From positions 3,249,001 through 3,313,000 of the forward strand of contig NC_089433.1 in the NCBI RefSeq assembly GCF_026210795.1: a stretch of 64,000 nucleotides of DNA. Direction: 5' to 3'. A program made the translations under genes and the position numbers. The notes under the pieces were generated by a model. That model was given only the letters and a program-made list of their open reading frames with translations, did no database searches and was not told the origin of the DNA. Positions 5,371 through 28,900 of this stretch are shown here, piece after piece. How positions within the stretch are numbered: the stretch's first letter is position 1; each line of letters begins with the position of its first letter. This stretch comes from Rhizophagus irregularis (Eukaryota > Glomeromycota > Glomeromycetes > Glomerales > Glomeraceae).

Positions 5371-5600
5371 AAAAATTAAGCAGTATCAAGGAAAATTCTC
5401 GCAAATTTTTCTTGATACTGCCTATTTTTAAAGTTTAAAGACCGATTAGTAACGAATTTAAGAAAAATTCTCACGAATTTTTCTTGATACCGCTTATTTT
5501 TAAAGTTTAAATAAATTGAAATTACGATTTTTTAAGAAAAATTCTCGCGAATTTTTCTTGATACCGCTTATTTTTAAAGTTTAAAGACCGTAAAAAACTA
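5371..5600 (+). repeat. Palindromic repeat array, left cluster (about 72 bp period)
   Basis: Three units each contain the near-perfect palindrome GAAAAATTCTCGCGAATTTTTC followed by TTGATACCGCTTATTTTTAA and AGTTTAAAGACCG. The same repeat recurs in the opposite orientation at 10870-11560 and 20170-20660. With the Tnp2 pseudogene between the left and right clusters, these could be subterminal repeats of a CACTA-like element; this role is inference. Confidence 0.75.
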
Positions 5601-10869: not shown

Positions 10870-11560
10870 ATAAGAAATTCTCGCGAATTTTTCTTAGTGA
10901 TCGCGATTAGTAAATTCGCGAATTTTTCTTAGTGATCGTGATTTAAATTTACTAATCGGTCTTTAAACTTTAAAATAAGCAGTATCAAGAAAAATTCGCA
11001 AGAATTTTTCTTAAAAAATCGTGATTTCAATTTATTTAAACTTTAAAATAAGCGGTATCAAGAAAAATTCGCAAGAATTTTTCTTAAAATCGTGATTTTA
11101 GTTTACTAATTGGTCTTTAAACTTTAAAAATAAGCAGTATCAAGAAAAATTCGCAAGAATTTTTCTTGAAATCGTGATTTTTAGTTTACCGTATACGGAA
11201 TTTATTTTTATTTTTTTTTTTTACCGTATACGGAATTTAATATGGAATTTATTTATTTTTTTTTTTAATACGGAATTTATAAAAACGTATATCAAATATA
11301 TATAAAACGTATCATTTCCATATACAGATTTCTTATAGTTTGAACTTAAAATAATCAGACCTAAAAATTCAACGATATTAAGGAAAATACTCGTGAATTT
11401 TCTTAACAATAGAACTTTAAAGATTAATAATCATGACTTTAATTTACCAATCAGATTTTGAACTTTAAAATTAAGCAGTATTAAGAAAAATTCTTGTGAA
11501 TTTTCCTTACTAATCAGGGTTTGAAGTTTAAATTAAAAATTCTTTTGTAAATTTGACGAT
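10870..11560 (-). repeat. Palindromic repeat array, right cluster (inverted relative to 5371-5600)
   Basis: Repeats carry GAAAAATTCGCAAGAATTTTTC flanked by AATAAGCAGTATCAA on one side and AAATCGTGATTT on the other, with period about 70-80 bp. The last copies, past 11330, are more diverged. Two short TACCGTATACGGAATTTA words lie at 11187-11240. The orientation is opposite to the left cluster. Confidence 0.7.
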
Positions 11561-11746: not shown

Positions 11747-12414
11747 ATCAATCATCAGCAAGTTTTAAACAGGCATATAAAGTGTTGAAAAACACCATGT
11801 GTTGCTCAACGCCAAAAAACGTAGGGAAACGAACCCTTTGTCAATCAACACCACTTAAAAATGTTTAAAAACGTGTAAAACAACACCCATTTAAGTGTAA
11901 AGCTACACATAGTAAAACAACGATAGTTTAAAAACGCGTATACAATGTATAAAAACGCGTATATTGATATTAAAAACACGTATAGCAACGGTAGCAATGG
12001 TATTTTTTAGTCATCGTACGATAGTTAACTTTAATTGTAGTATTAGTAATTTATTAACATATATATTATTGTATATTATTAACGTGTATATTTTAAAATT
12101 TTTAAATTGTAAAACATTGTAAATTTATTTATAGAATACAGTACAATACAAATACAATATCTAATCATGTAAAATTGTAAAAATTCATCCTCTTGTTATA
12201 ATTGGATTGCCGCGGATTTTTAAGCGATCAACGTACTAAAATTCCGTTGACATAGCGCCCCTGGTGACACAACCATAACAAGGTGGAAATATGAACTTTC
12301 CCTCGATAATTATATTAATATTATGCTCCTTCATGATAAAAATCAAAACCAAATCTCGTCGTATGTGTCTTAACAACATCAAGTGGTTTAATATTCACAT
12401 TGAGGATTGAGGAA

Positions 12415-14622
12415 TTATCTTCCATTATTCATTCGCTCAAGGGTCGAAATAACCATCAAGCTGACCTACAAAAGAAAAATCCAGAGCGCCGAAAAGAAAA
12501 TCTAGGCCTACAAAAAAAAGAGAAACGTTCAGTTAGAACGTTTCTTAAAGAATAAAATTAAAAAAAATAATTAAAAAAATGTAAGTTTCGAATATCGAAA
12601 CTTACCATATCAGCATATCCAAGTCCCAAAGCCAAAAGAATCGATACCTACAAAAAGAAAAGAGAAAATTAAAAAAAAATAAAAAAAATAAAAATAAAAA
12701 ACGTGTTTTATTCAAAACTTACTGATTCTTTAGGTTTTCCGTTCTTCGGAAGCCCACCCGAACCTATAAAAAAAAATACAAGAACGGTTAGTTAACCGTT
12801 CTTAATAATAAAAAAATAAAAAAAAGTTAAGATTCGTACCATACCTTACGAATCTTTGGGTTTTCCGTTCTTGGGAAGCCCACCCGAACCTATAAAAGAA
12901 AAAAGAAAGAACGGTTAGTAAACCGTTCATAATAATAAACAAAGAAAGAAAAAAATAAAGATTCTTACGAATCTTTGGGTTTTTCCGTTCTTGGGAAGCC
13001 CACCCGAACCTATAAAAGAAAAGAAAGGAACGGTTAGTAAACCGTTCCAAAATATTAAAAAAAACAAAAACCAAAATTCGTACTTGTACTTACGAATCTT
13101 GGTTCTCCCGTTTGTCCGAAGTCCACCCGAACCTAAAAAAGAAAGGAACGGTTATTAGTAACCGTTCATAATATTAAAAAAAAAAAATAAAAAAAACAAA
13201 ACCAAGATTTGTATATACTTACGAATCTTGGTTCTTTTCCGTTCTTCGGAACCAGGAAGCCGCCCGAAACCTAAAAAATAGAAGTAAAGAACGGTTATTA
13301 GTAACCGTTCATAATATTTTTTTAAAAAAAAAACAAAAAAAAAACAAAACCAAGATTTGTATATACTTACGAATCTTGGTTCTTTTCCGTTCTTCGGAAC
13401 CAGGAAGCCGCCCGAAACCTAAAAAAAGAAAAGAACGGTTATTAGTAACCGTTCATTAATAATATTAAAAAAAAAAGAAAAAAAAAATTAAACCAAGATT
13501 CGTACTTATCTTACGAATCTTGGTTTTCCGTTCTTCAGAACTCAGAAGCCCACCCGCTGACCTAAAGAAGAAAGGAAAAAAAAATGAAAAAAAATTACGA
13601 AACGTTAATAAGCCGTTTCGTTAAAAAATGTAATAAAAAAAAATCGAACGCTTAGCCAACGTTTCGATTAAAGAAAAAAATCAAAAAAGTTTCGAAACGT
13701 TAAAAACGTTTCGTTAAAAATGAAATACAAAAAAATTGGAACGTTAGCCAACGTTCCGATTAAGAAAAATAAAAAAAAAATGTATTTTGAAACGTTAAAA
13801 AGCGTTTCGTTAAAAAAAATGAAAAATAAAAAAATCGGAACGTTAGACAACGTACTGATTAAAGAAGTTAAAAAAAAAAGAATAAATGAAACGTTTTTCA
13901 ACGTTTCGTTAAAAAAGTAAAATAAAAAAATAATCAGAACGCCAATGTTCTGATTAAAAAAATTAAAAAAATTGTTTCGAACGTTAAAAACGTTCCGATT
14001 AAAAAAAAAGAAAAAAAATATTTTCAAACGCTAAAAAACGCTTCGCTAAAAATGAAAAATCGAACGCTTAACCAACGTTCCGATTAAAAAAATAAAACAA
14101 ATATTTCAAACGCTAAAAAACGCTTTCAAAATAATTTTAATGAAAAATCGGAACGCTTAGCCAACGCTCCGATTAAAAAAATGAAAAAACAAATATTTCG
14201 AACGTTGACAACGCTCCGATTAAAAAATAAAACAAATATTTCAAACGTTAAAAAATGTTTCAAAATATTTTAATGAAAAATCGGAACGTTAGCCAACGTT
14301 CGATTAAAGAATTTTTTAAAAAACAATATTTCGAACGCTTTTCAACGTTCCGATTAAAAATGAAGTAAAAAAATTAATCAGAAGCGTTAGCCAGCGTTCC
14401 GATTAAAAGAATTTAAAAAAAAATAATATTTGAACGTTTTTCAACGTTCCGATTAAAAATGAAATAAAAAAAATAATCAGAACGTTAGCCAACGTTCCGA
14501 TTAAAAGAATTTTTAAAAAAAATATTTTGAAACGTTAAAAAACGTTTCGTTAAAAAATGAATAAATAGTTTCGCAACGTTTTGTTGCGAAACTCACCAAA
14601 CTTTTTTCCGTAAAAGGCTCAT
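12415..14622 (-). CDS. Ten-exon micro-exon gene encoding a basic repeat protein (140 aa)
   Basis: Exons (complement): 14597-14622, 13515-13561, 13371-13418, 13223-13270, 13094-13132, 12969-13009, 12850-12889, 12723-12763, 12606-12647, 12415-12465. Together they total 423 nt and form one open frame from ATG to TAA. Exon lengths of 47, 41 and 40 nt change phase yet the frame stays open, which supports coding. Each internal exon gives one repeat, for example SAGGLLSSEERKTKI, RFGRLPGSEERKRTKI (twice), RSGGLRTNGRTKI and RSGGLPKNGKPKES; the end is VSILLALGLGYADM then VSLMVISTLERMNNGR. The product is Lys/Arg-rich with no clear signal peptide. Donors are GTAAG (GTGAG for exon 1); acceptors are TATAG/TTTAG/TGTAG. 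Micro-exon repeat genes are known among mycorrhizal effectors, but no homology is claimed. Exon 1 is the least certain part. Confidence 0.6.
12480..13560 (-). repeat. Tandem array of exon-plus-structured-intron units
   Basis: About 8 units of 110-150 bp alternate a GC-richer micro-exon with an AT-rich intron. On the minus strand many introns contain an inverted repeat across the 5' splice site (e.g. CCAAGATTC|GTAAG...GAATCTTGG) and a second one such as GAACGGTTTACTAACCGTTC about 15-30 nt before the acceptor. The latter places a TACTAAC-like branch-point motif in the stem-loop. Confidence 0.7.
13562..14596 (-). repeat. Intron 1 of the micro-exon gene: array of about 20 short inverted repeats
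   Basis: The 1-kb intron consists almost wholly of units such as GGAACGTTAGCCAACGTTCC, GAAACGTTAAAAAGCGTTTC and CGAACGTTAAAAACGTTCCG, spaced by A-rich spacers of about 20-40 bp. No internal micro-exon with donor and acceptor is seen. The stems resemble the branch-point hairpins of the downstream introns, suggesting expansion from one of them. Confidence 0.65.
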
Positions 14623-14699
14623 ATCTCTGGAATTAATGACCTTATATTACGGAATTTATCCACTTATTACATTTTCTGTGAATGGATCTGTGAAGGCTC

Positions 14700-15001
14700 A
14701 TTTTTACGGAGTTTTTATAGAAATAACGGATAAAACTTTTATAAAGGAAAGGGGAGAAAGGGGAGAACGAAAGGGAAAAGAACGAAACGAAAGGGAAGGG
14801 GAGAAATAAAGGGTAATGGGAAAATAAAAGGGAAGGGGAGAACGAAGGGGAGAACGAAGGGGTAATGGGAAAACGAAAGGGAAGGGGAGAACGAAGAAAA
14901 GCAAAAAAAATTAAGCTTTGCTAAAAAAAGCTTAATTTCTTTTTTTGCTATACCGCAGTCCGCAGCGGTAATCCAGTATCACGTGATACATGTGATATAG
15001 A
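14700..15001 (-). promoter_or_regulatory. Promoter-like block of the E1 micro-exon gene
   Basis: Read on the minus strand: the palindrome GTATCACGTGATAC (14976-14989, with a CACGTG E-box core), a CCGCTGCGG palindromic word, a hairpin with AAGCTTAATT arms (14910-14937), then a CT-rich tract of about 150 nt (14745-14900), then exon 1. The same parts in the same order occur in E2 (24925-25203). Conservation between two otherwise diverged copies suggests function. The promoter role is inferred from position. Confidence 0.5.
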
Positions 15002-15081
15002 GTACGGCCATTATAGTATTGCCGAAATGATTTTTTTTTTAAATACTAATTTTAATAAATGTATATTATACTTAAATTAAA

Positions 15082-15150
15082 TAGTACAGTGGTTAGATCG
15101 TGAGATATGATATTGTAAGTTGAGGTAACCGGTTCGGTTCCTAAGGTGAG
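15082..15150 (+). other. tRNA-like relic inside E1
   Basis: The segment contains TACAGTGGTTAGATCGTGAG, resembling a tRNA D-arm/A-box, and about 30 nt later GGTTCGGTTCC, resembling a T-arm/B-box. Pairing of a complete cloverleaf is not convincing, so this is a pseudo-tRNA or SINE head rather than a tRNA gene. It is absent from the matching place in E2. Confidence 0.4.
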
Positions 15151-15412
15151 TAAAAATAAATAAATAAATATAATTTAATTAAAATATACACATGTAATCA
15201 TATATATGCGTTAATATACAGTGCGTTGAACAACAATGCATAATGTGTTGCACTACAAATTAGAGTTGAACGACGCGTATATTAACATTATGCGCTGATA
15301 TACTCCAATATATGGGTGTTGATTAATATTGTTAATCATGTTGAACAACTAGCTGGTGTTGATCAACGCGTATACTGGTGTGAATCAACGCTTTTCAAAC
15401 TTGCTGATGATA

Positions 15413-15557: not shown

Positions 15558-17448
15558 TTATGTATTATAAATTTTATTTAACTTTTCAATTCTTTTTCTT
15601 TTGGCTTCATTCTTAAAGGCTTTGTATAACCGTTTCCCGTCAAAACGGGAAACCAGTTGGTTCGTTCTTACTAATTCCAGCCACCTTTCAAAATTTACCA
15701 CTCCTATTTTTTTTGCGGTAAATAGGTAAGGATCTAAATCTGAAAAGGCATAAACAATATTATAATTATCTGATGCCATTTCCAGTAATCTTTTAGCTCT
15801 CACCGCCTTGTTTAAAATTGTAGATATAGTGGTAGCCTTTAACCGTGGTGCTATTTGATCTGGTAATTTTGATGATTTTTCGATCATCGTAATAACTTGA
15901 GATTTAATAGTTTCCCCTTTGTTTCGCTCATAATTTATACTGCAATAAATTTCGAGCCTTTCATAATATTCTAAGAATAAAATGAGATGCTGAAATTGCC
16001 GGCATCTTAGAATTTCAGTGGATACTTGATCTTTTAATGATAGATCGTATATGTTTAATATAATATTTGTTATTGCCGTACAGGCCAATTTTTTCTTATT
16101 TTCAAATTCTCGTGAGTCAGATAAATTGACCAATAAACTAGGATCATTTATTTCGGCAATAATATCCTGATTTATTATAGGATCATCCGGGCTTATGATT
16201 TGGTGATCCAAACTTCCTTCGCCAGTCTCTTCTTTTTCATCATTTAAAATATAGCTTATGGAAGCTCTTTTAGAAGAAACTTCAATGAGCACGAATTTGT
16301 CAATGTTAGTTGAAAAAAATTCATCCACACTGGCGATTTTGGATAAATGGTCAATAAGAAAATAATGATATTCTTCTTTATTTGGAATATCGTTATTATT
16401 CGTTGGAGGGGGGGTTGGAAGTTTATGGATATTATTGAGGAGGATGTGTAAATGACGTCCCATATTAATTGTCGATTCCGGAATACTATGGTTCTCTTCC
16501 TCATTCACTTCCTCGTCTTCTTTCTTGCCTATTTCCTCGCCTATTTCCTCGCCAAAGATTAACTGATCTTCCTTTCTTTTCTCTTCCTCGTCTTCTTTCT
16601 CATCTTTTTCTTCGCCCAGGATTAACTGCTGATCTTCCTCTCCTTTCTCATCCTCGTCTTCTTCCTCGTCTTTTTCTTCGCCCAGGATTAACTGCTGATC
16701 TTCCTCTCCTTTCTCATCCTCGTCTTCTTCCTCGCCTTTTTTTTCACCCAGGATTAACTGCTGATCTTCCTCTCCTTTCTCATCCTCGTCTTCTTCCTCG
16801 TCTTTTTCCTCGCCTAGAAATAACTGATCTTCCTCTCCTTTCTCATTCTCTTCGTTTTCCTCTATATCCATTTTTTCGTCAGGAGCTATCTTTTCTCCGC
16901 CATCGTCATGGATTATCTTATCCTCTTCGTTTTCCTCTATATCCATTTTCTCACCATCCTCGTCAGGAACTACCTTTTCTCCACCATAGTCATGAATTAA
17001 CTGATCTTGCATTTCCTCATCCTCCTCACCCTCCTCATCCTCAATAATATCAATTGTTTTATCACTTTCATAACCGTAGTGATAAACATCATCTTCTGTT
17101 ACTTCACCATCATTATCATTAATATTATCTTTATTGTGATCTATATCAACGACTGGTACCTGAAATTTATGACCGTTTGGCAATTCTAATAATATGCTAG
17201 ATTCGTCGATAATTGCTTTTTTATAACCACATTCTTTTAAAAATCTTTGTGTCTTTAGTATTGACGACAATAATTCTATTATATATACAATAAAATATTT
17301 AATTATTTACTATATATAATAAATAAATTAATAAATGCAATAAAAATACTTTTATACTTGCTTTATTATTATCGCCTTTTTCTGCTATGAATGTAGAAAT
17401 ATCAGACGTCGCTGCTGCACTTGTTCCTGCAAGTGAAGAATCAGACAT
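15558..17448 (-). CDS. Hypothetical protein with acidic tandem repeats and a conserved-looking C-terminal domain
   Basis: Two exons are supported: 17358-17448 (MSDSSLAGTSAAATSDISTF onward) and 15558-17275. They are joined by an 82-bp GT-AG intron that keeps frame (GCA A|AA TTA). The product is about 602 residues. Part one has a short segment (FLKECGYKKAIIDESSILLE). The middle is extremely acidic, with five copies of a roughly 21-residue Glu/Asp repeat around QLILGEEKDEEEDEDEKGEE (16545-16815). The C-terminal 230 residues are mixed and look globular (LFLEYYERLEIYCSINYERN, SDNYNIVYAFSDLDPYLFTA, VVNFERWLELVRTNQ) and end in a Lys/Arg-rich tail. I do not recognise the family. It starts just right of E1. 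An upstream in-frame Met at 17478 is an alternative start. Confidence 0.65.
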
Positions 17449-18106
17449 TTTTGATGGAATGAATGGAATGAAAGACATTTTTGATGGAATGAAAAAAGCA
17501 GTATATAAGAAAATAATAAGCGATAGCGATAATATAAAATAATTTTTTGGAATTAATATGATGAAATAAAAAAGGCAGTATATAAGAAAATAATAAGCGA
17601 TAGTGATAATATAAAATAATTTTTTGAAATTAGTATGAAAGATGCTGGATGATGAGATAGGGGAAGATAGGCTATTTATATTCAATTTGAGATGACTCGA
17701 ATCAACATTTAGAAAATAAAAACAAAGGAGATTTAGAAAATAAAACAAAGGAGGTAGATATTAGCATCATTGTTTAAAATTTTGTTCTTCCGTTATTATT
17801 AAAAATTTTATTACAACGTATTGTTAAAATTTTATTCTTCCGTTATTATTAAAAATTATATTACAACGTATTGTTTATTCCGTTATTATTAAAAATCATT
17901 TGAGTTTCTTTATTATTGTTCAAAATCTACCGTTTTGTTCACATTTTCTATTTATATATATCTATATTCAGACTCGGATTCTGATTCTGAGGAGGTCAGT
18001 AATTTTTTTTACGAATCAATATTGTTTAAATATTAAAAAAAAACTAATGTAATAAAATAGCCGATCTCCCGCTGTGGCAAAAAATTGGCTGATCCATATA
18101 TTTATT

Positions 18107-20169: not shown

Positions 20170-20660
20170 ATGTCACAATTACAGCTTAAATTTAAAGTTC
20201 AAAGTCCGAATAATCAAATTCTTGCGAATTTTCTTAAATTAAACAGTAGATCGGACTTTAAACATTAAAAAATAAGCAGTATTAAGAAAAATTCTCGCGA
20301 ATTTTTCTTAAATTAAGCAGTAGATCGGACTTTGAACATTAAAATTAAGCGGTATTAAGGAAAATTCTCGCGAATTTTTCTTAAATTAAGCAGTAGATTG
20401 GACTTTGAACATTAAAATTAAGCAGTATTAAGGAAAATTCTCGCGAATTTTTCTTAAATTAAGCAGTAGATCGGACTTTAAACATTAAAATTAAGCAGTA
20501 TTTTGCGCTTTAAAAATTAAATACTATTAAGAAAATTTTGCGCGAATTTTTATTGATGATCGTAATTTAAATTGGACGTTAGTAATAAGAAAATTTTACT
20601 GATCAGGGTTTGTACTTTAAAAAAATTTATTAAGGAAATTATCCCGAATTTTTATTAATG
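20170..20660 (-). repeat. Palindromic repeat array, third cluster
   Basis: At least four clear units carry GGAAAATTCTCGCGAATTTT, then CTTAAATTAAGCAGTAGATC and GGACTTTGAACATTAAAATT, with a period of about 65-70 bp. Decayed units follow to 20660. It is the same family as the clusters at 5371 and 10870 and matches the latter in orientation. Confidence 0.75.
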
Positions 20661-21109: not shown

Positions 21110-21800
21110 AGTATAAAGTTGTAAAGTTAATAAAAACAATAAAAACAAATACAATATCCAGTACAACTATAGAAAATACGTTATAAACGTATGAATTTAA
21201 TATAGTATACACAGTCTATAGAATAATACATTATATACGTATGGATTAAATATACCGTATCCTTCATTTATAATATTTTTTGCGAACAGTATACAAAATA
21301 CTGATATACAGTAGAAATAGTATACGTTTCAAACGTATGAATTTAGATACCGTATCACACAGTATGTTTACCGTATACTTTATTGTATTTTTTGCTAAAC
21401 ACATTTTGCGAACAGTATACATTATACTGTTATACAGTATATAAAAATATGAACCGTATCAAAGATACATGTATACAGTGTAAAAACCGTATGCATATTT
21501 TTTATAGGGCAGTATAAAATATACGATTTATCCTGGAAAAGTATACTCGCAATATAAAATATAAAACAATATACTGTTTATTAGTATAAAACATACGGTT
21601 TTTCTACTGTTTACAAGTATAAAACATATGGGTGAAACTGGAAAAATATACTGTATGCAAACCGTATATATGATACAGTGTGCAGAATACTGAATATATA
21701 CAGTATGTAAAAATACTGTAATTATACGGTAATAATACTATAAATATACTGTTCGCAAAATACGAAAATACAGTATACTAACTGTATATATTTTTTTTAT
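21110..21800. repeat. Island of interspersed CAGTATAC / CCGTATAC words
   Basis: About 690 bp contain dozens of near-copies of CAGTATAC, ACCGTATAC, TATACGGT and ATACTGTTT on both strands at irregular spacing. The island is bracketed at its right end by TTTTTTTTATAGGG, like the CCCTATAAAA element ends. It is not a simple tandem repeat and has no coding potential. Confidence 0.6.
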
Positions 21801-23155: not shown

Positions 23156-23829
23156 ACACTTATGTAAAACTCAAAAAAAAAGAATTTATGTAAAATCCAA
23201 TAAAAAGCAACAACTTCCGTCAAATTTCAACTAACAAAAATGAAGATTTATTATTATTATTTTTAACAAATGTTAAATTTTCTATTAACAGGATTTACGG
23301 CCAAATATTCTCTCGCATTTTTCCTATCCAAAATTTTATATTTTATTGGCACCATCAGTAAGATTTTGGGTGGTGTATACTAGCGTTAATTAACGCCAAT
23401 TGACACTAGTGTAGTTTAATGCTTTAAAATGTAGAAAAACTAACCCTATAATGACTGATACTATCAAAATACGTGTATAAAAATGCAGTTTAGTGTTAAA
23501 CAACACGTATCATGTGTTAGTTGATTTGTATTGTACAATACACACATAGTATTGAAAAATACATTTATTTACATGTATATTTTAGTTGAAAAATGCATAA
23601 AAAAGTGTTGATTTACACATTTATTTACATGAAAATATGCATTTTTTATCTAATTATTTAACTAATGTAAATATCTAATATAGATCTATATATATGAAAT
23701 AAGTTTTCAAAAGTAAACTCAAAAACAATTGTGCTTACAAAAAATAACCTCCAGTTTCCAGGTACCGATTTAAAGCCCTTTTGCCGGGTAATCTAATATC
23801 TTGCTTTGAAATCATAAAAATTCTATTTA

Positions 23830-24917
23830 AACCTACAAAAAAAAGAAAAAAAAACATTAAAAATAATAATAAAAAAAATAAAATAAAACAATCTCATAAA
23901 GAAACTTACTGTTTAGTTCCAATACAGTGAATACACTTTGAAACTTCAGGACCTATATAATAAAAAAAAAAGAAACATTGAATAAGTTTTTTATGAAGAA
24001 AAATAAATAAGTTTCGTTTCAAAATTCGAAACTTACCATCCAAAACCAATTGAAGGCGGAACTAACTAAATAATAATAAAATAATTCGTTTCGCAACAGA
24101 ATGTTGCGAAACTTACAGTCCGAAAATTCCCAACACGTTCCGGTTACAAAAAAAAGTAAAATAGAAATGTTAACTAACGTTTCTAAAATAAAATGAAAAA
24201 AAATTTATTTCACAGCGGGACGTTGTAAAACTTACAATTCAAACGTTTTTAGCGCGTTCCTGATCCGAGGTAACACTTTGATCCTACAAAAAGGATAAAG
24301 GAGACGTTAGCAAACGTTTCCTAATAAAAATAAAAAAATATATTTTAAAGTTTCGAAGTGAAACTCTTCGAAACTTACCTTCAATCTGAAACCAAAACTT
24401 TCTCGAATCTTGGATTTGAAACTGTATACCTAAATAAATAAAAGAAAAAGGAAATGTTAGTAAACATTTCCTAATTTAAAAAAAAATCAAAAAATTAACA
24501 GAAGTTTCATAACGAAATGTACGAAACTTACCGTTTCAGAACCCATATCCAATACTGAATATTTAACTCTATAAAAAATAAAGGAGACGTTTAGTTAGAA
24601 CGTTTCCTAATAAAAAAATTTTTTTAAAAAAGTTTCGAGATAAATGGCTCGAAACTTACCATTCCGTTTCCTCTAAAATTGAATATGCCAAAAGTACTAC
24701 AAAAAAAAAATTATGGAAACATTAGTAACGTTTCCTAATAGAAATTAAAAAAAAAATTATTTAAAAAAAGTTTTGAGGTGAATGCCTCAAAACTTACCAT
24801 TTCGCCCGAAGTACAACAATGGTCCTACAAAAAAAAACCAAAGGAACGTTCCCTCATAAAATTAAGAAAAAAATAACTTTAAAAAAAAGTTTCGAAGCTT
24901 TCGCTTTGAAACTTACT
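23830..24917 (-). pseudogene. Micro-exon gene of E2, frame apparently not maintained
   Basis: On the minus strand, eight or nine blocks of 27-50 nt are each preceded by TTTGTAG/TATAG/TTTAG and followed by GTAAGTTT, for example GACCATTGTTGTACTTCGGG through GCGAAATG, and the 50-nt block starting GTATACAGTTTC. Introns again hold a 5' hairpin (GTTTCGAAG...CTTCGAAAC) and a branch-point hairpin (GGAAATGTTTACTAACATTTCC). Exon sequences differ from E1. One acceptor near 24155 reads GTAAC instead of GTAG. In the joins I tried, stops appear within about 30 codons. It is either decayed or spliced differently from my reading. Confidence 0.45.
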
Positions 24918-24924
24918 ATTTTGG

Positions 24925-25203
24925 AAATGGGAAAACGAATAAGAAAAGGGGAAAAAGGGAAGGGAATAACGAAAGAGGAGAAGGGGAGAACGAAAACAAA
25001 AAGGGAAAGGAGATAACGAAAGAGAAGGAGAAGGGGAGAACAAAAAGGGAAAGGGGAGAACGAAAGAGAAAAAAGGAAAGTCGTGAGAAAAAAATTAAGC
25101 TTTTGCTAAAAAAAAAGCTTAATTTTTTTTTTCGCAATACCGCAGCACTGCAGCAGGCGCAGCGGTAATTATTAATCCAGTATCACGTGATACATGTGAT
25201 ATG
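24925..25203 (-). promoter_or_regulatory. Promoter-like block of E2, conserved with E1
   Basis: CT-rich tract on the minus strand (24925-25085), AAGCTTAATT-armed hairpin (25089-25128), CCGCTGCGCC words and the palindrome GTATCACGTGATAC (25180-25193). Same order and spacing style as 14700-15001. Confidence 0.5.
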
Positions 25204-25925
25204 TAGATTTATATAAATAAGGGGCTTTTTCCTGAAATTTTTTTTTATATTTTTTTTAATAGATGTATATATGTGCTTATATATACATATATATATATCT
25301 ATTAACTTTAATACTTTACGAAAAGCCCCTCCTCTATAAATAGGTAGAGGTCATAAAGTACCTATAGGGGGAGAACTATTGCTGCTCCCTCTGCCTGTTT
25401 TATAGTGATAAAAAGAGGGAGTCTTCAGTAGTAAGGTTTGATGTGTATTTATACACATTAATTAGTAATATTAAACAACACAATAAACTACACCTAGTAT
25501 TAAAAAGTATGTATAATGTTAAAAAACACTAATAAAAATGGTTGTATTTCTATACTAAATTGCAGTATAACAAACTTCGTATTTATATATATTGCTTATT
25601 GGCATTTAACAATATGTTAAACTACATTTGTGTTGAAAAATATGTATAGTATTAATAAATGGTAATAACAACTAGTGTATTTTTATACTAAATTTTAATA
25701 AAACAACATTTTGTATTTGTTTACATTGATTGATGGCATTAAACTACATTGCATATCATATTGAACTATACTTGACATCAAACAACATAAAAAAACTTGT
25801 ATAATTATATGTATATAACAGCATTCAGTATTAATCATTACAGTATACAGTATTAAACAATAGGATATATCATATTAAACAACTTCTTAATGTTAATTAA
25901 CACTAAAATTATATAAAGCAACACT
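25204..25925. other. Right subterminal part of E2
   Basis: No gene. A T-rich stretch is followed by AAAGCCCCTCCTCTATAAAT and GGTAGAGGTCATAAAGTACC, then by AT-rich DNA with many TTAAACAACA and ACATTGTATT words resembling the subterminal motifs of E1. Confidence 0.5.
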
Positions 25926-28900
25926 TTTAAAACTTGCTGATGACAAATCTACTGAGAATATTATGCACTGGAATTATGCAATCTCGACCTTCAGGGTAAA
26001 ATTCAGTACCCCAAAGTTCGACATTGCAAATTTCATCGTCTTCAATACTGAAATAATAACGAGAATTCGCTGGTTGATACCATTGAATGAATGCCAAATT
26101 ATGTTCCAATTCTCCATCCGGTAAGTCAACCTTGTGAGAAAAAAAGAATTGAACTTGTCCGGGATAACAATCAACGCTACCGTCTTGTGTTATAAATTTG
26201 GCTAAAATATACGAGTTCTTTACGTGTCGAGCAAACATATTTGACCCAAATGTCTCTGAACTGATTCTACATCTACCGAACTGTTTCATTTTGACGGAAA
26301 TGATCTTTGAATTCTCATGGCCTTCTCTGAATGGCTTTTGAAACTCAAGTGTTTCATAAGTCGCCAAATAGTATTCGACCAGTAAATCAAGCATTGAATT
26401 TGATATCACTACATTTTCAGAGGCGGGACCCAACATTTCACCTGGAAATGACTCGCTTCCAGTGACTATTGATTGTTGAATATTTCGCGAATTCAACCAA
26501 AATCGTTTTATTTCATCGGCTGAAAATTCGTCAACCTCTGCCAAGGATCCAACAAAAGTTCGGTTATTGAGAAGTTCTAGTCCCCTTACATTTTCTCCAG
26601 AATTTATAATACTATCAATGTGGATATCAGCCATCATTCGTCGCATAATTTCCAGTTCTATTTTCCTATGGCTATTTGGTAAGACGCCTAAAATTTAAAA
26701 TTACGATTACGCATAAATTAAGAATAAGAATATTAAACCTAAATAAATAGTTATAGTTTACCTAATATACCATTCATGCGTTCGAAGGAGAAACACCAGA
26801 ATGCGTATAAAGGTCCAAAATCATACGTACATTCACTCAAATGAAATGAAAGATGGAAATTAGGAGTAATTTTATTTCGTCCATAATGTTCCTCAATGAA
26901 CTTCACAATTTCAATCAATTTCTCATGCGATTCTCTCATAGCATCAAGTTCTAAAATTTGACTTACGAAAGCTGTACAAACTCTCACAAAATGATGGAGA
27001 ATTTTCTGATCATGTACCGAAAGGTGACTCCATAGCGATACTGTAGCATAAATTGTGAAAAAGATTTGCCATTGATCTGCTGTAAAATTTGAAAATCCTT
27101 CTCTGCAATGGATTTTCCCAGGGATTCGTCCCAAATCGGATGGAATCTGAAACTCATCCATTTTTTTTTGAATTTTTATAAACGATTGTTGGTTTAAAAT
27201 TCCTTCATCAACCCAAATTCTTTTCACTATCCATCTCACAATGCCTAGAAATAAGCAGTACATTGGATTGACAACAATGAACCTTATAGGGTCGAAGTAT
27301 AACAACCACAATAATTCTGACCATCTAACTCCAGTATCTTTCGTAAAATGTTTTCGTGAAGCATTAGAGTTACAACGTCGCCATTCATGTGCATTTTCAC
27401 GAAACTCGGCCAAATCTCAAGTAACAAACCATTCGTCTATATTGTCTATCCTGGCGAAATTATTTTGTCGATTCTCATAATTTGCTCGTTTTTTGCACCA
27501 GTGACATAATGCAAGCGCTAAAATATGTCCGCATATCTTCCTTACCACGGGAACATCACACAAAACTAGTACTAAAACTGCACGAATATTTTTTCCGTTT
27601 TGGCATTCAAATGTTCGATTTAGAGTTATTCCACTCTATAGTAATTCTAAATCATTGACAATTGGTGCTAAATAGTGATTGATTTGGTGTAAGCTCACTT
27701 CGTTAGGACCTGGTAATATTCTGAGAATTAATAAATTTTCTCTTTTAAATCAAATGTCTCGAGGCAAGTTTCAAATGGCGACATATATCACACCGGTGCT
27801 GTGAATTGTCCCTTCATAGGGTTGGAACCAATCCACATTCAGCATTAGACCGAGGTGTGAATCTGCAACTTTAGGCCGGAAAAAATTAGGCGAATCATGA
27901 TAAGAAGTATCCTTAAATGTTTACTACACTTGACCATCGTAAATGTCAGTCAATATATTTTCAGAATGTAATCGATCGGACCAATGTCTGAGTGACCTTT
28001 CGAATTCTGATCGAAGATATAGGGTTGCTAATTGTTGACGAATTGTAGAAAATGGATAAATCATCTCAATTCAATTTGACATTCTATTTAATAATCTTAT
28101 TTGATGAGATAAAGGAGTTTGGCACTTCTGGCGTCTTGATGAATTTGGAAATTCGATATGTTGACATTTCATAATGGCAAGAATTTCATCTTGACGAAAC
28201 TCCTCTACTTCTTGTTTGTTGTATAATTTGTGACACTTCGTACATGCTGCAAAGCAATGAAATCGATCTTCTATGTTGAGAATATTTCTCGCTTTATATA
28301 AAGTGACGGGAAAATTTTCAAATGCAGTATCGCCAATTTCATCCAATAACAGTTTTATGAACTTTATTAGTGATTCAGTTGCTGTTTCTGGAATGTTAAA
28401 TCTCATTCGAAATTTCATAATCCATATTAAAATCCATAAAAACTTATTATCATCGCTAGTTGGAGTTGGAGTGACATCTGGGTCTTGATATGGTTCGAAA
28501 GAAGGGCATGAATAATCTTCAAAAGTTTCAGATTTGTTATTTTCCGATTCGTCATCTCCATTCAATTCGTTATCATTAGTGTCTTCGCTTTGATCTTTGG
28601 CCATACTTTCTCTCAGTAATAAATCTTGTTCGATGTTACTGATGTTACCAATGGAAACTCTAGTCAAATATACCTTGATCTACGTCTTTGAGGCAATCGG
28701 TCAACTCTTTGCTCATTTAAAATAGTCAATTGAGATGATTCATCATTAATATTTTCAGTATTTTCCAAAACTTCAGATGGTTCATTATCCCAAATTTCAG
28801 TATTTTCCAAAACTTCGATAGTTCGTTATCCCGAATTTCAGTATTTTCGATAATTACTTCTGAAACATCTGACGAAAGTTGGCTTGATAATTTATGTCAA

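Follow-up and report, generated by a model that had tools for sequence, protein, structure and literature searches.

Structured, repeated introns are already known, and the closest described systems differ in where the structure lies and in what it does. Fungal introner-like elements and symmetrical sister stwintrons are near-identical, structured and internally symmetrical introns with many copies per genome; their terminal inverted repeats are 45-55 nt long and span the intron, and the copies occupy new gene positions with no short duplications (PMC8469720). The introners of Amoebophrya are likewise repeated introns with inverted repeats predicted as hairpins, but their repeats of 8-20 nt pair the 5' end of the intron with its 3' end and the introns are mainly non-canonical (PMC7789003). 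In yeast, intron stems occur near the donor (the 5' splice site) and the branch point: zipper stems leave both of these free and bring them closer, while downstream stems are located between the branch point and the acceptor (PMC12350175). Perfect stems with compensatory change are also seen where hairpins are maintained by template switching, in which a stem can be made or its pairing restored in a single event; that work concerns RNA genes such as rRNA, where most of the two-step changes observed pass via G-U (PMC8794818).

The intron-like units that we describe in Rhizophagus irregularis depart from each of these. Unlike introner-like elements and stwintrons, they have two local palindromes per intron, stand in tandem with exons and lie within DNA transposons, and unlike the introners of Amoebophrya they have GT-AG borders and hairpins local to the donor and to the branch site. 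Each hairpin encloses the donor or the branch motif, and the two are not both left free as they are by a zipper stem. The units are thus structured, repeated introns, a known kind, in an unusual place. A search of the open literature gave, among the results listed, no earlier account of R. irregularis palindromes that lie on donor and branch site; a paper on twin introns names the species once (PMC5639578). The Plavaka family is reported to be particularly prevalent in R. irregularis, in this strain and in others, and about two thirds of the transposable elements of the species are said to be still unclassified (PMC11075540); the strings 'intron', 'hairpin', 'splic' and 'non-autonomous' each have 0 occurrences in the main text of the same paper.

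The window (the whole stretch of 64,000 nucleotides that we analysed) holds an array at ~12500-13561 that rides in a non-autonomous Plavaka-type transposon of 3.66 kb (Table 1). The 13-bp terminal inverted repeats of the element are at 11753-11765 and 15397-15409, and its 2-bp target duplication is AT. Across the genome (146,748,485 bases in 32 contigs were searched) there are five further copies with sharp ends and ~95-97% identity, two of which align as two pieces; the duplications of the window copy and five others read AT, AT, GG, CA, GA and AA. The end motif of the element has 119 matches genome-wide vs 0 in a reversed control. The same ends are found on two elements of 7.84 kb (L074 and L075), with 86% identity over ~390 bp and 92% over 236 bp, identical inverted repeats and again 2-bp duplications. 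L074, the one of the two that we scanned, codes for a Plavaka transposase (PF18759, E 2.4e-32), and because its ends are shared with the window element we regard the array as cargo of a non-autonomous Plavaka-type element. By the three patterns tried, the array hairpins are absent from L074 and L075, and a search of a plasmid collection gave no match. Both this transposon setting and the lack of convincing coding signs in the exons (see below) had been missed by the sequence-only reading, a first interpretation of the locus made from its letters.

Table 1. Coordinates of the array-bearing element, its hairpins and a second element, in positions of the window.
Feature	Positions	Strand	Basis
Plavaka-type transposon, non-autonomous, carries the array	11753-15409	minus	terminal inverted repeats and 2-bp target duplication
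Long hairpin-rich stretch, from GTGAG donor (with its own hairpin) to first array acceptor	13562-14596	minus	
Mini-exon 1, 47 nt	13515-13561	minus	
Donor hairpin, unit 1; 15-nt arms over exon-intron border, donor GU paired	13490-13526	minus	
Branch hairpin, unit 1; GAACGGTTACTAATAACCGTTC, branch A in loop	13433-13454	minus	
Donor hairpin, unit 2	13343-13386	minus	folding
Branch hairpin, unit 2	13289-13310	minus	
Donor hairpin, unit 3	13195-13238	minus	folding
Branch hairpin, unit 3	13146-13167	minus	
Donor hairpin, unit 4; 17 pairs in MFE fold	13066-13107	minus	
Branch hairpin, unit 4; TACTAAC form, branch A paired	13027-13048	minus	
Donor hairpin, unit 5; sole GUAA tetraloop of the eight units	12957-12976	minus	
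Branch hairpin, unit 5; TACTAAC form	12909-12928	minus	
Donor hairpin, unit 6	12829-12856	minus	folding
Branch hairpin, unit 6	12780-12803	minus	
Intron-like stretch, unit 7; no clear hairpins (z +0.1)	12648-12722	minus	
Class-2 donor hairpin, entirely intronic; GTAAGTTTCGATATTCGAAACTTAC	12581-12605	minus	folding
Branch hairpin of the class-2 unit; AGAAACGTTCTAACTGAACGTTTCT	12521-12545	minus	
Second Plavaka-type element, class-2 introns, target duplication GT	23353-25942	minus	borders partly by eye

The array reads on the minus strand from 13561 to ~12500: eight intron-like units, each 75-100 nt long and bounded by GT and AG, are interspersed with exons of 39-48 nt. A branch hairpin is found in seven of the eight and a donor hairpin in seven; six of the donor hairpins lie across the exon-intron border, one is wholly intronic, and in the unit with its donor at 12722 none is clear. 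In seven units a hairpin around CTAAC or CTAAT is followed by a T-rich tract and then by AG, and the order and spacing of GT, branch motif, T-tract and AG fit U2-type spliceosomal introns, whose splicing is here a prediction. The long stretch at 13562-14596 holds tandem hairpins such as AATCGGAACGTTGGCTAACGTTCCGATT and, judging by its sequence, is probably one long intron; its borders are splice-like signals picked out by eye, and a mechanical intron caller split the stretch differently.

The sequence-only reading held that exon ends pair with intron starts to leave the donor in a GUAA loop, that a second stem near each acceptor contains TACTAAC, and that RNA structure might keep donor and branch point in a fixed geometry. 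Both hairpins that it quoted are where it placed them on the minus strand, the donor example (AAAGATTC followed across the border by GTAAGAATCTTT) at 12976-12957 and the branch stem AACGGTTTACTAACCGTT within 12928-12909. When each intron is folded, as had been suggested, seven of the eight units form two separate hairpins. Relative to dinucleotide shuffles, the MFEs of the eight units have z-scores of -7.1, -5.6, -6.7, -7.8, -5.2, -4.5, +0.1 and -5.8, and the value of +0.1 belongs to the unit with its donor at 12722, where neither hairpin is clear. A control stretch at 17353-17273, containing a host-gene intron (identified by eye) of the gene beside the element, has a z-score of -0.4 and no hairpin excess.

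The state of the splice signals within these folds is another matter. The donor G and U are both free only in the unit with its donor at 12968, the one with the GUAA loop. In six other units the probability of being unpaired is 0.00-0.05 for the G and 0.00-0.01 for the U; the corresponding values for the 12722 unit, whose fold is weak, are 0.18 and 0.25. The GUAA loop therefore describes one of the eight units here and 33 of 230 family-wide, and elsewhere the donor GU is usually paired. On the acceptor side the claimed stem is borne out as a hairpin in seven of eight units, but it does not present the branch A in the TACTAAC form: in TTTACTAACC (three of the eight units) that A is paired, with an unpaired probability of 0.01-0.02. 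The branch A is exposed in the TACTAAT form (another three of the eight) and in the last unit. Family-wide, the branch hairpin of the 230 non-redundant units has its long form in 123 and its short form in 106. A fixed geometry is not supported, because each hairpin is local and none joins the donor to the branch point. Masking of splice signals by the hairpins is possible.

Hairpins of these kinds recur across the genome. The branch hairpin GAACGGTTTACTAACCGTTC, allowing at most one mismatch, has 252 matches vs 0 in the reversed control, the class-2 donor hairpin has 688 vs 0, and a third donor class, in which the donor sits between the arms (TTTTGAAG at the end of the exon, then GTAA and further on CTTCAAAA), has 61 vs 0; all three counts include both strands and count perfect palindromes twice. 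A whole-genome search with the unit gave at least 194 matches. For class 1 we built a profile from sequence alone, whose ~900 matches leave 461 units after filtering for overlap and strand; 410 of these span both stems, 387 are distinct and 230 remain at <95% identity, and the units fall into 49 merged regions and are related by descent. The share of candidate branch-acceptor pairs in a stem of at least 6 bp is 170 of 305 for the 49 array regions, 17 of 39 for class-2 loci and 1 of 19 for control DNA, and the same test with shuffled flanks gives 1.9-2.6% (1.9% in array regions). The donor of class-1 units is GTAAGT in 249 of 408, decaying units have AT donors (ATAAG* in 22 of 408), and intron length is 75-99 in 378 of 406. 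In class 1 the repeat unit is an exon and an intron duplicated together. One further unit type, at L046, has a branch hairpin AAGAAACGAACTAACGTTTCTT and no evident donor hairpin, and is joined to class-1 units.

Class-2 introns are carried by the second element of the window. Its donors are at 24797, 24659, 24531 and 24378, its branch hairpins at 24715-24735 and 24449-24472, and the fold z-scores of four of its introns are -3.5, -2.0, -4.9 and -3.1. The donor hairpin lies within the intron (GTAAGTTTCGAG..CTCGAAACTT). The element interrupts a host open reading frame, and the frame is continuous across the empty site; one of its acceptors, by eye, is now GTAA. The introns of this element are alike in sequence and the exons between them are not, and class 2 as a whole is mixed in this respect. 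Eight class-2 matches that seemed to stand alone were fetched: seven lie within further arrays, several of these with repeated exons (by eye), and the eighth, L083, has no branch hairpin and lies in a stretch that, by eye, resembles an ordinary coding gene. At L083 the class-2 donor hairpin has a long loop and sits in an intron of a transporter-like gene (again by eye); it could be a chance occurrence or an escaped intron.

The arms of the stems change together. A genome-wide covariation check, suggested along with the sequence-only reading, finds compensatory changes in excess, and not the lack of excess that would have refuted that reading: double changes that preserve pairing number 120 in the class-1 donor stem vs 35.7 in shuffles (maximum 50), and 22 in the class-1 branch stem vs 6.6 (maximum 13), figures that are inflated, like all covariation figures given here, because units related by descent do not supply independent events. 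In class 2 we scored the inner pairs that the search pattern leaves open: the Watson-Crick fraction is 0.849 vs 0.515 once arms are swapped among the hairpins (38 hairpins), and 0.845 vs 0.533 by the same comparison in a second listing (50 hairpins). The class-2 covariation score over 31 rows is 0.232 vs 0.081 shuffled, a value reached in 0 of 500 shuffles, and slid structures score 0.024-0.074. Two of the five measures of the pair counter on these 31 rows are within the shuffles: pairs changed on both sides show no excess (4 vs 3.3, reached in 167 of 500), nor do further pair types (10 vs 8.8, 122 of 500). At the single class-2 stem position where variants were counted genome-wide, there are 688 CG, 163 UG, 150 CA and 179 UA pairs; the 179 UA compare with ~36 expected if the two sides were independent (odds ratio 5.0).

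Selection on RNA structure should tolerate U.G and remove C.A. We find that the wobble pair is not preferred in the intron stems: UG vs CA at the class-2 position gives p 0.50, the class-1 donor-stem core has G.T 74 vs A.C 66 (p 0.55) and the class-1 branch-stem core has G.T 43 vs A.C 53 (p 0.36). With the outer columns, which are unpaired in the consensus, the class-1 tallies are 85 G.T and 107 A.C for the donor and 58 and 54 for the branch. The exception is a hairpin in the exon, with G.T 162 vs A.C 84, as expected under selection on RNA. Dead-donor units, in which the GT is lost, keep their stems in the set of 230 non-redundant units (donor stem 0.938 vs 0.947, p 0.58; branch stem 0.935 vs 0.943, p 0.62), and in the 387 distinct units the donor stem shows a weak difference (0.914 vs 0.953, p 0.013) and the branch stem stands at 0.932 vs 0.952 (p 0.15). 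Because departures to U.G and to C.A are equal, and because dead-donor units of the non-redundant set retain their stems, the case for selection at the RNA level is weakened. Covariation with no preference for wobble therefore suggests that the palindromes are kept largely at the DNA level, and the single-event making or repair of a stem by template switching (PMC8794818) would fit the data from the arrays.

Comparison of 12 transposon copies points to a modest constraint on the stems. CpG sites of the branch stem changed in 5 of 372 cases vs 52 of 1095 in the flank (p 0.003) and 35 of 584 in exons (p 0.0004), and at the rates of the flank 39.7 changes of all kinds would be expected over both stems, where 25 are seen (Poisson p 0.008). 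Against constraint, CpG change in the donor stem (5 of 137) is not below that of the flank (p 0.67) or the exons (p 0.41). In the branch stem the rate of change at A/T sites exceeds that of the flank (8 of 1224 vs 21 of 9695), and in the long hairpin tract stem sequence varies freely (CpG 50 of 587, in a region where the alignment may be poorer). A hand count of splice dinucleotides in the copies gives GT at 100 of 101 donors and AG at 104 of 105 acceptors.

Do the exons code for protein? We dropped a coding gene as a candidate, antisense chains of joined exons being as open as sense chains. Chains are more open than random-frame joins at p <= 0.05 in 22 of 42 cases in sense and 18 of 42 in antisense, and this openness argument is abandoned because the random-frame-join null shortens the sequence and because antisense nearly equals sense. 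Fully open chains number 22 of 42 in sense and 23 of 42 in antisense, with antisense likewise open for 212 codons in chain C10 and for 206 in chain C15. Exons open in all three frames make up 123 of 252 in sense, 155 of 252 in antisense and 29.5% in shuffles. No protein is claimed, since antisense is as open as sense. A search for a spliced genomic copy (retrocopy) with one junction pattern gave 0 matches.

The idea that the array is a repeat-protein gene, effector-like and with one repeat per exon in the style of the SP7 family, draws on the joined exons of the window element, which are open for 125 codons, on seven of the eight copies with a first exon, which read 123-141 codons (several after frameshifts), and on the sense chains of C10 and C15, which are open for longer than 200 of 200 dinucleotide shuffles. 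Among exon lengths there is also a slight excess of multiples of three (144, 98 and 103 of 345 in the three classes modulo 3; chi-square p 0.004, among units that are related). Against these stand the ~58% of exons that are not multiples of three, the equal openness of the antisense chains and the lack, by eye, of the published motif Y[KR]Rx[AP]x[AP] of the SP7 family in the translation; we rejected an SP7 effector and give this idea hardly any credence. A mobile structured intron that seeds introns in host genes, as introner-like elements do, would account for class-2 introns that share sequence while the exons of the second element do not, and L083, one of the eight fetched matches, has the gene-like context (by eye) that it calls for. 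The other seven matches lie in arrays, several with repeated exons, and class-1 units duplicate together with their exons; we consider this account very unlikely. The array might instead be palindromic satellite cargo that proliferates as DNA and is unspliced today, with GT/AG and TACTAAC as relics. The long hairpin tract at 13562-14596 has no evident exons, some units are decaying to ATAAG* donors and the coding signs are unconvincing, all as a satellite would have it, but nearly all donor and acceptor dinucleotides are intact in the 12 copies, and the frequent GTAAGT and narrow range of intron length in class 1 also speak against relics; we think it improbable.

A further choice is between structure selected in RNA and palindromes kept in DNA. 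The sequence-only reading took the first side, with hairpins that hide or present donor and branch point and control splicing or skipping. In its favour are hairpins placed on both signals (three or more families of donor stem), strong paired change, the reduced change of the branch stems (and of both stems jointly) relative to the flank and the G.T excess of the exon hairpin. The intron stems, with no preference for G.U over A.C, argue against it, as do the dead-donor units, which keep their stems in the non-redundant set and differ weakly in the donor stem among the 387, and in yeast structure is depleted around canonical splice sites (PMC12350175). On balance we regard RNA selection as possible but doubtful. 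A purely DNA-level process, for its part, leaves unexplained why several unrelated families of palindromes sit on donor and branch sites, and hairpins so placed in several families ask for a reason related to splicing. The evidence is mixed, and we therefore suggest that the placement of the palindromes reflects a history related to splicing and that their perfection is kept mostly as DNA. The account that we favour, and believe about as firmly as we doubt it, is of tandem Plavaka-borne cassettes whose palindromes are maintained mainly at the DNA level, with modest constraint on the stems and masking in RNA if the array is transcribed. Non-autonomous Plavaka-type transposons carry tandem exon-intron-like cassettes with one short palindrome around the donor and another around the branch site, and the units would multiply by tandem duplication and along with the transposons. 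Template switching in quasi-palindromes, by copying one arm onto the other, together with amplification of units, would be mainly what keeps the palindromes near-perfect, and the stems of mobile copies would be under modest extra constraint. If the array is transcribed, hairpins in the RNA would hide the donor, and in units of the TACTAAC form the branch A as well, and each unit might then be spliced slowly or conditionally; the hairpins do not bridge donor and branch point.

Hundreds of intron-like units with several stem families in one genome offer a ready comparison of the effects of donor and branch hairpins. They also allow one to ask, on a large natural sample, whether compensatory change in a stem proves RNA function, because covariation here is strong and the wobble preference expected of RNA selection is missing. 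A more speculative thought, which we consider rather improbable, is that such transposons act as an intron nursery, in which splice signals, thanks to the palindromes around donor and branch site, are copied, repaired and multiplied by replication as DNA hairpins. If it were true, spliceable units would arise and stay intact with no selection on each unit, some would escape into host genes, and palindrome dynamics, transposition and intron birth would be joined in one system. For R. irregularis itself, one group of non-autonomous transposons is now characterised.

Some further features of the window are recorded here. In the terminal region of the array-bearing element, at 15040-15170 on the plus strand, is a tRNA-like stretch GTACAGTGGTTAGATC..GGTTCGGTTCC; ARAGORN in its bacterial setting reports no tRNA in it, and searches for tRNAs and known RNA families returned none at the settings used. 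Adjoining the element on the minus strand (15580-17500) is a gene, identified by eye, with five 66-bp repeats that code for acidic residues. Outside both elements, a plus-strand tract at 21400-21800 has many ATACTGT/ACAGTAT palindromic motifs and terminates in ATACAGTATACTAACTGTAT, a hairpin resembling those at the branch sites, after which come a T-tract and AG. Three tandem arrays with a unit of 73-82 bp, at 5388-5590, 10912-11180 and 20216-20502 and apparently in both orientations, share a palindromic core of the TTCTCGCGAATTTTTC type and a AAGCAGTA-like motif.
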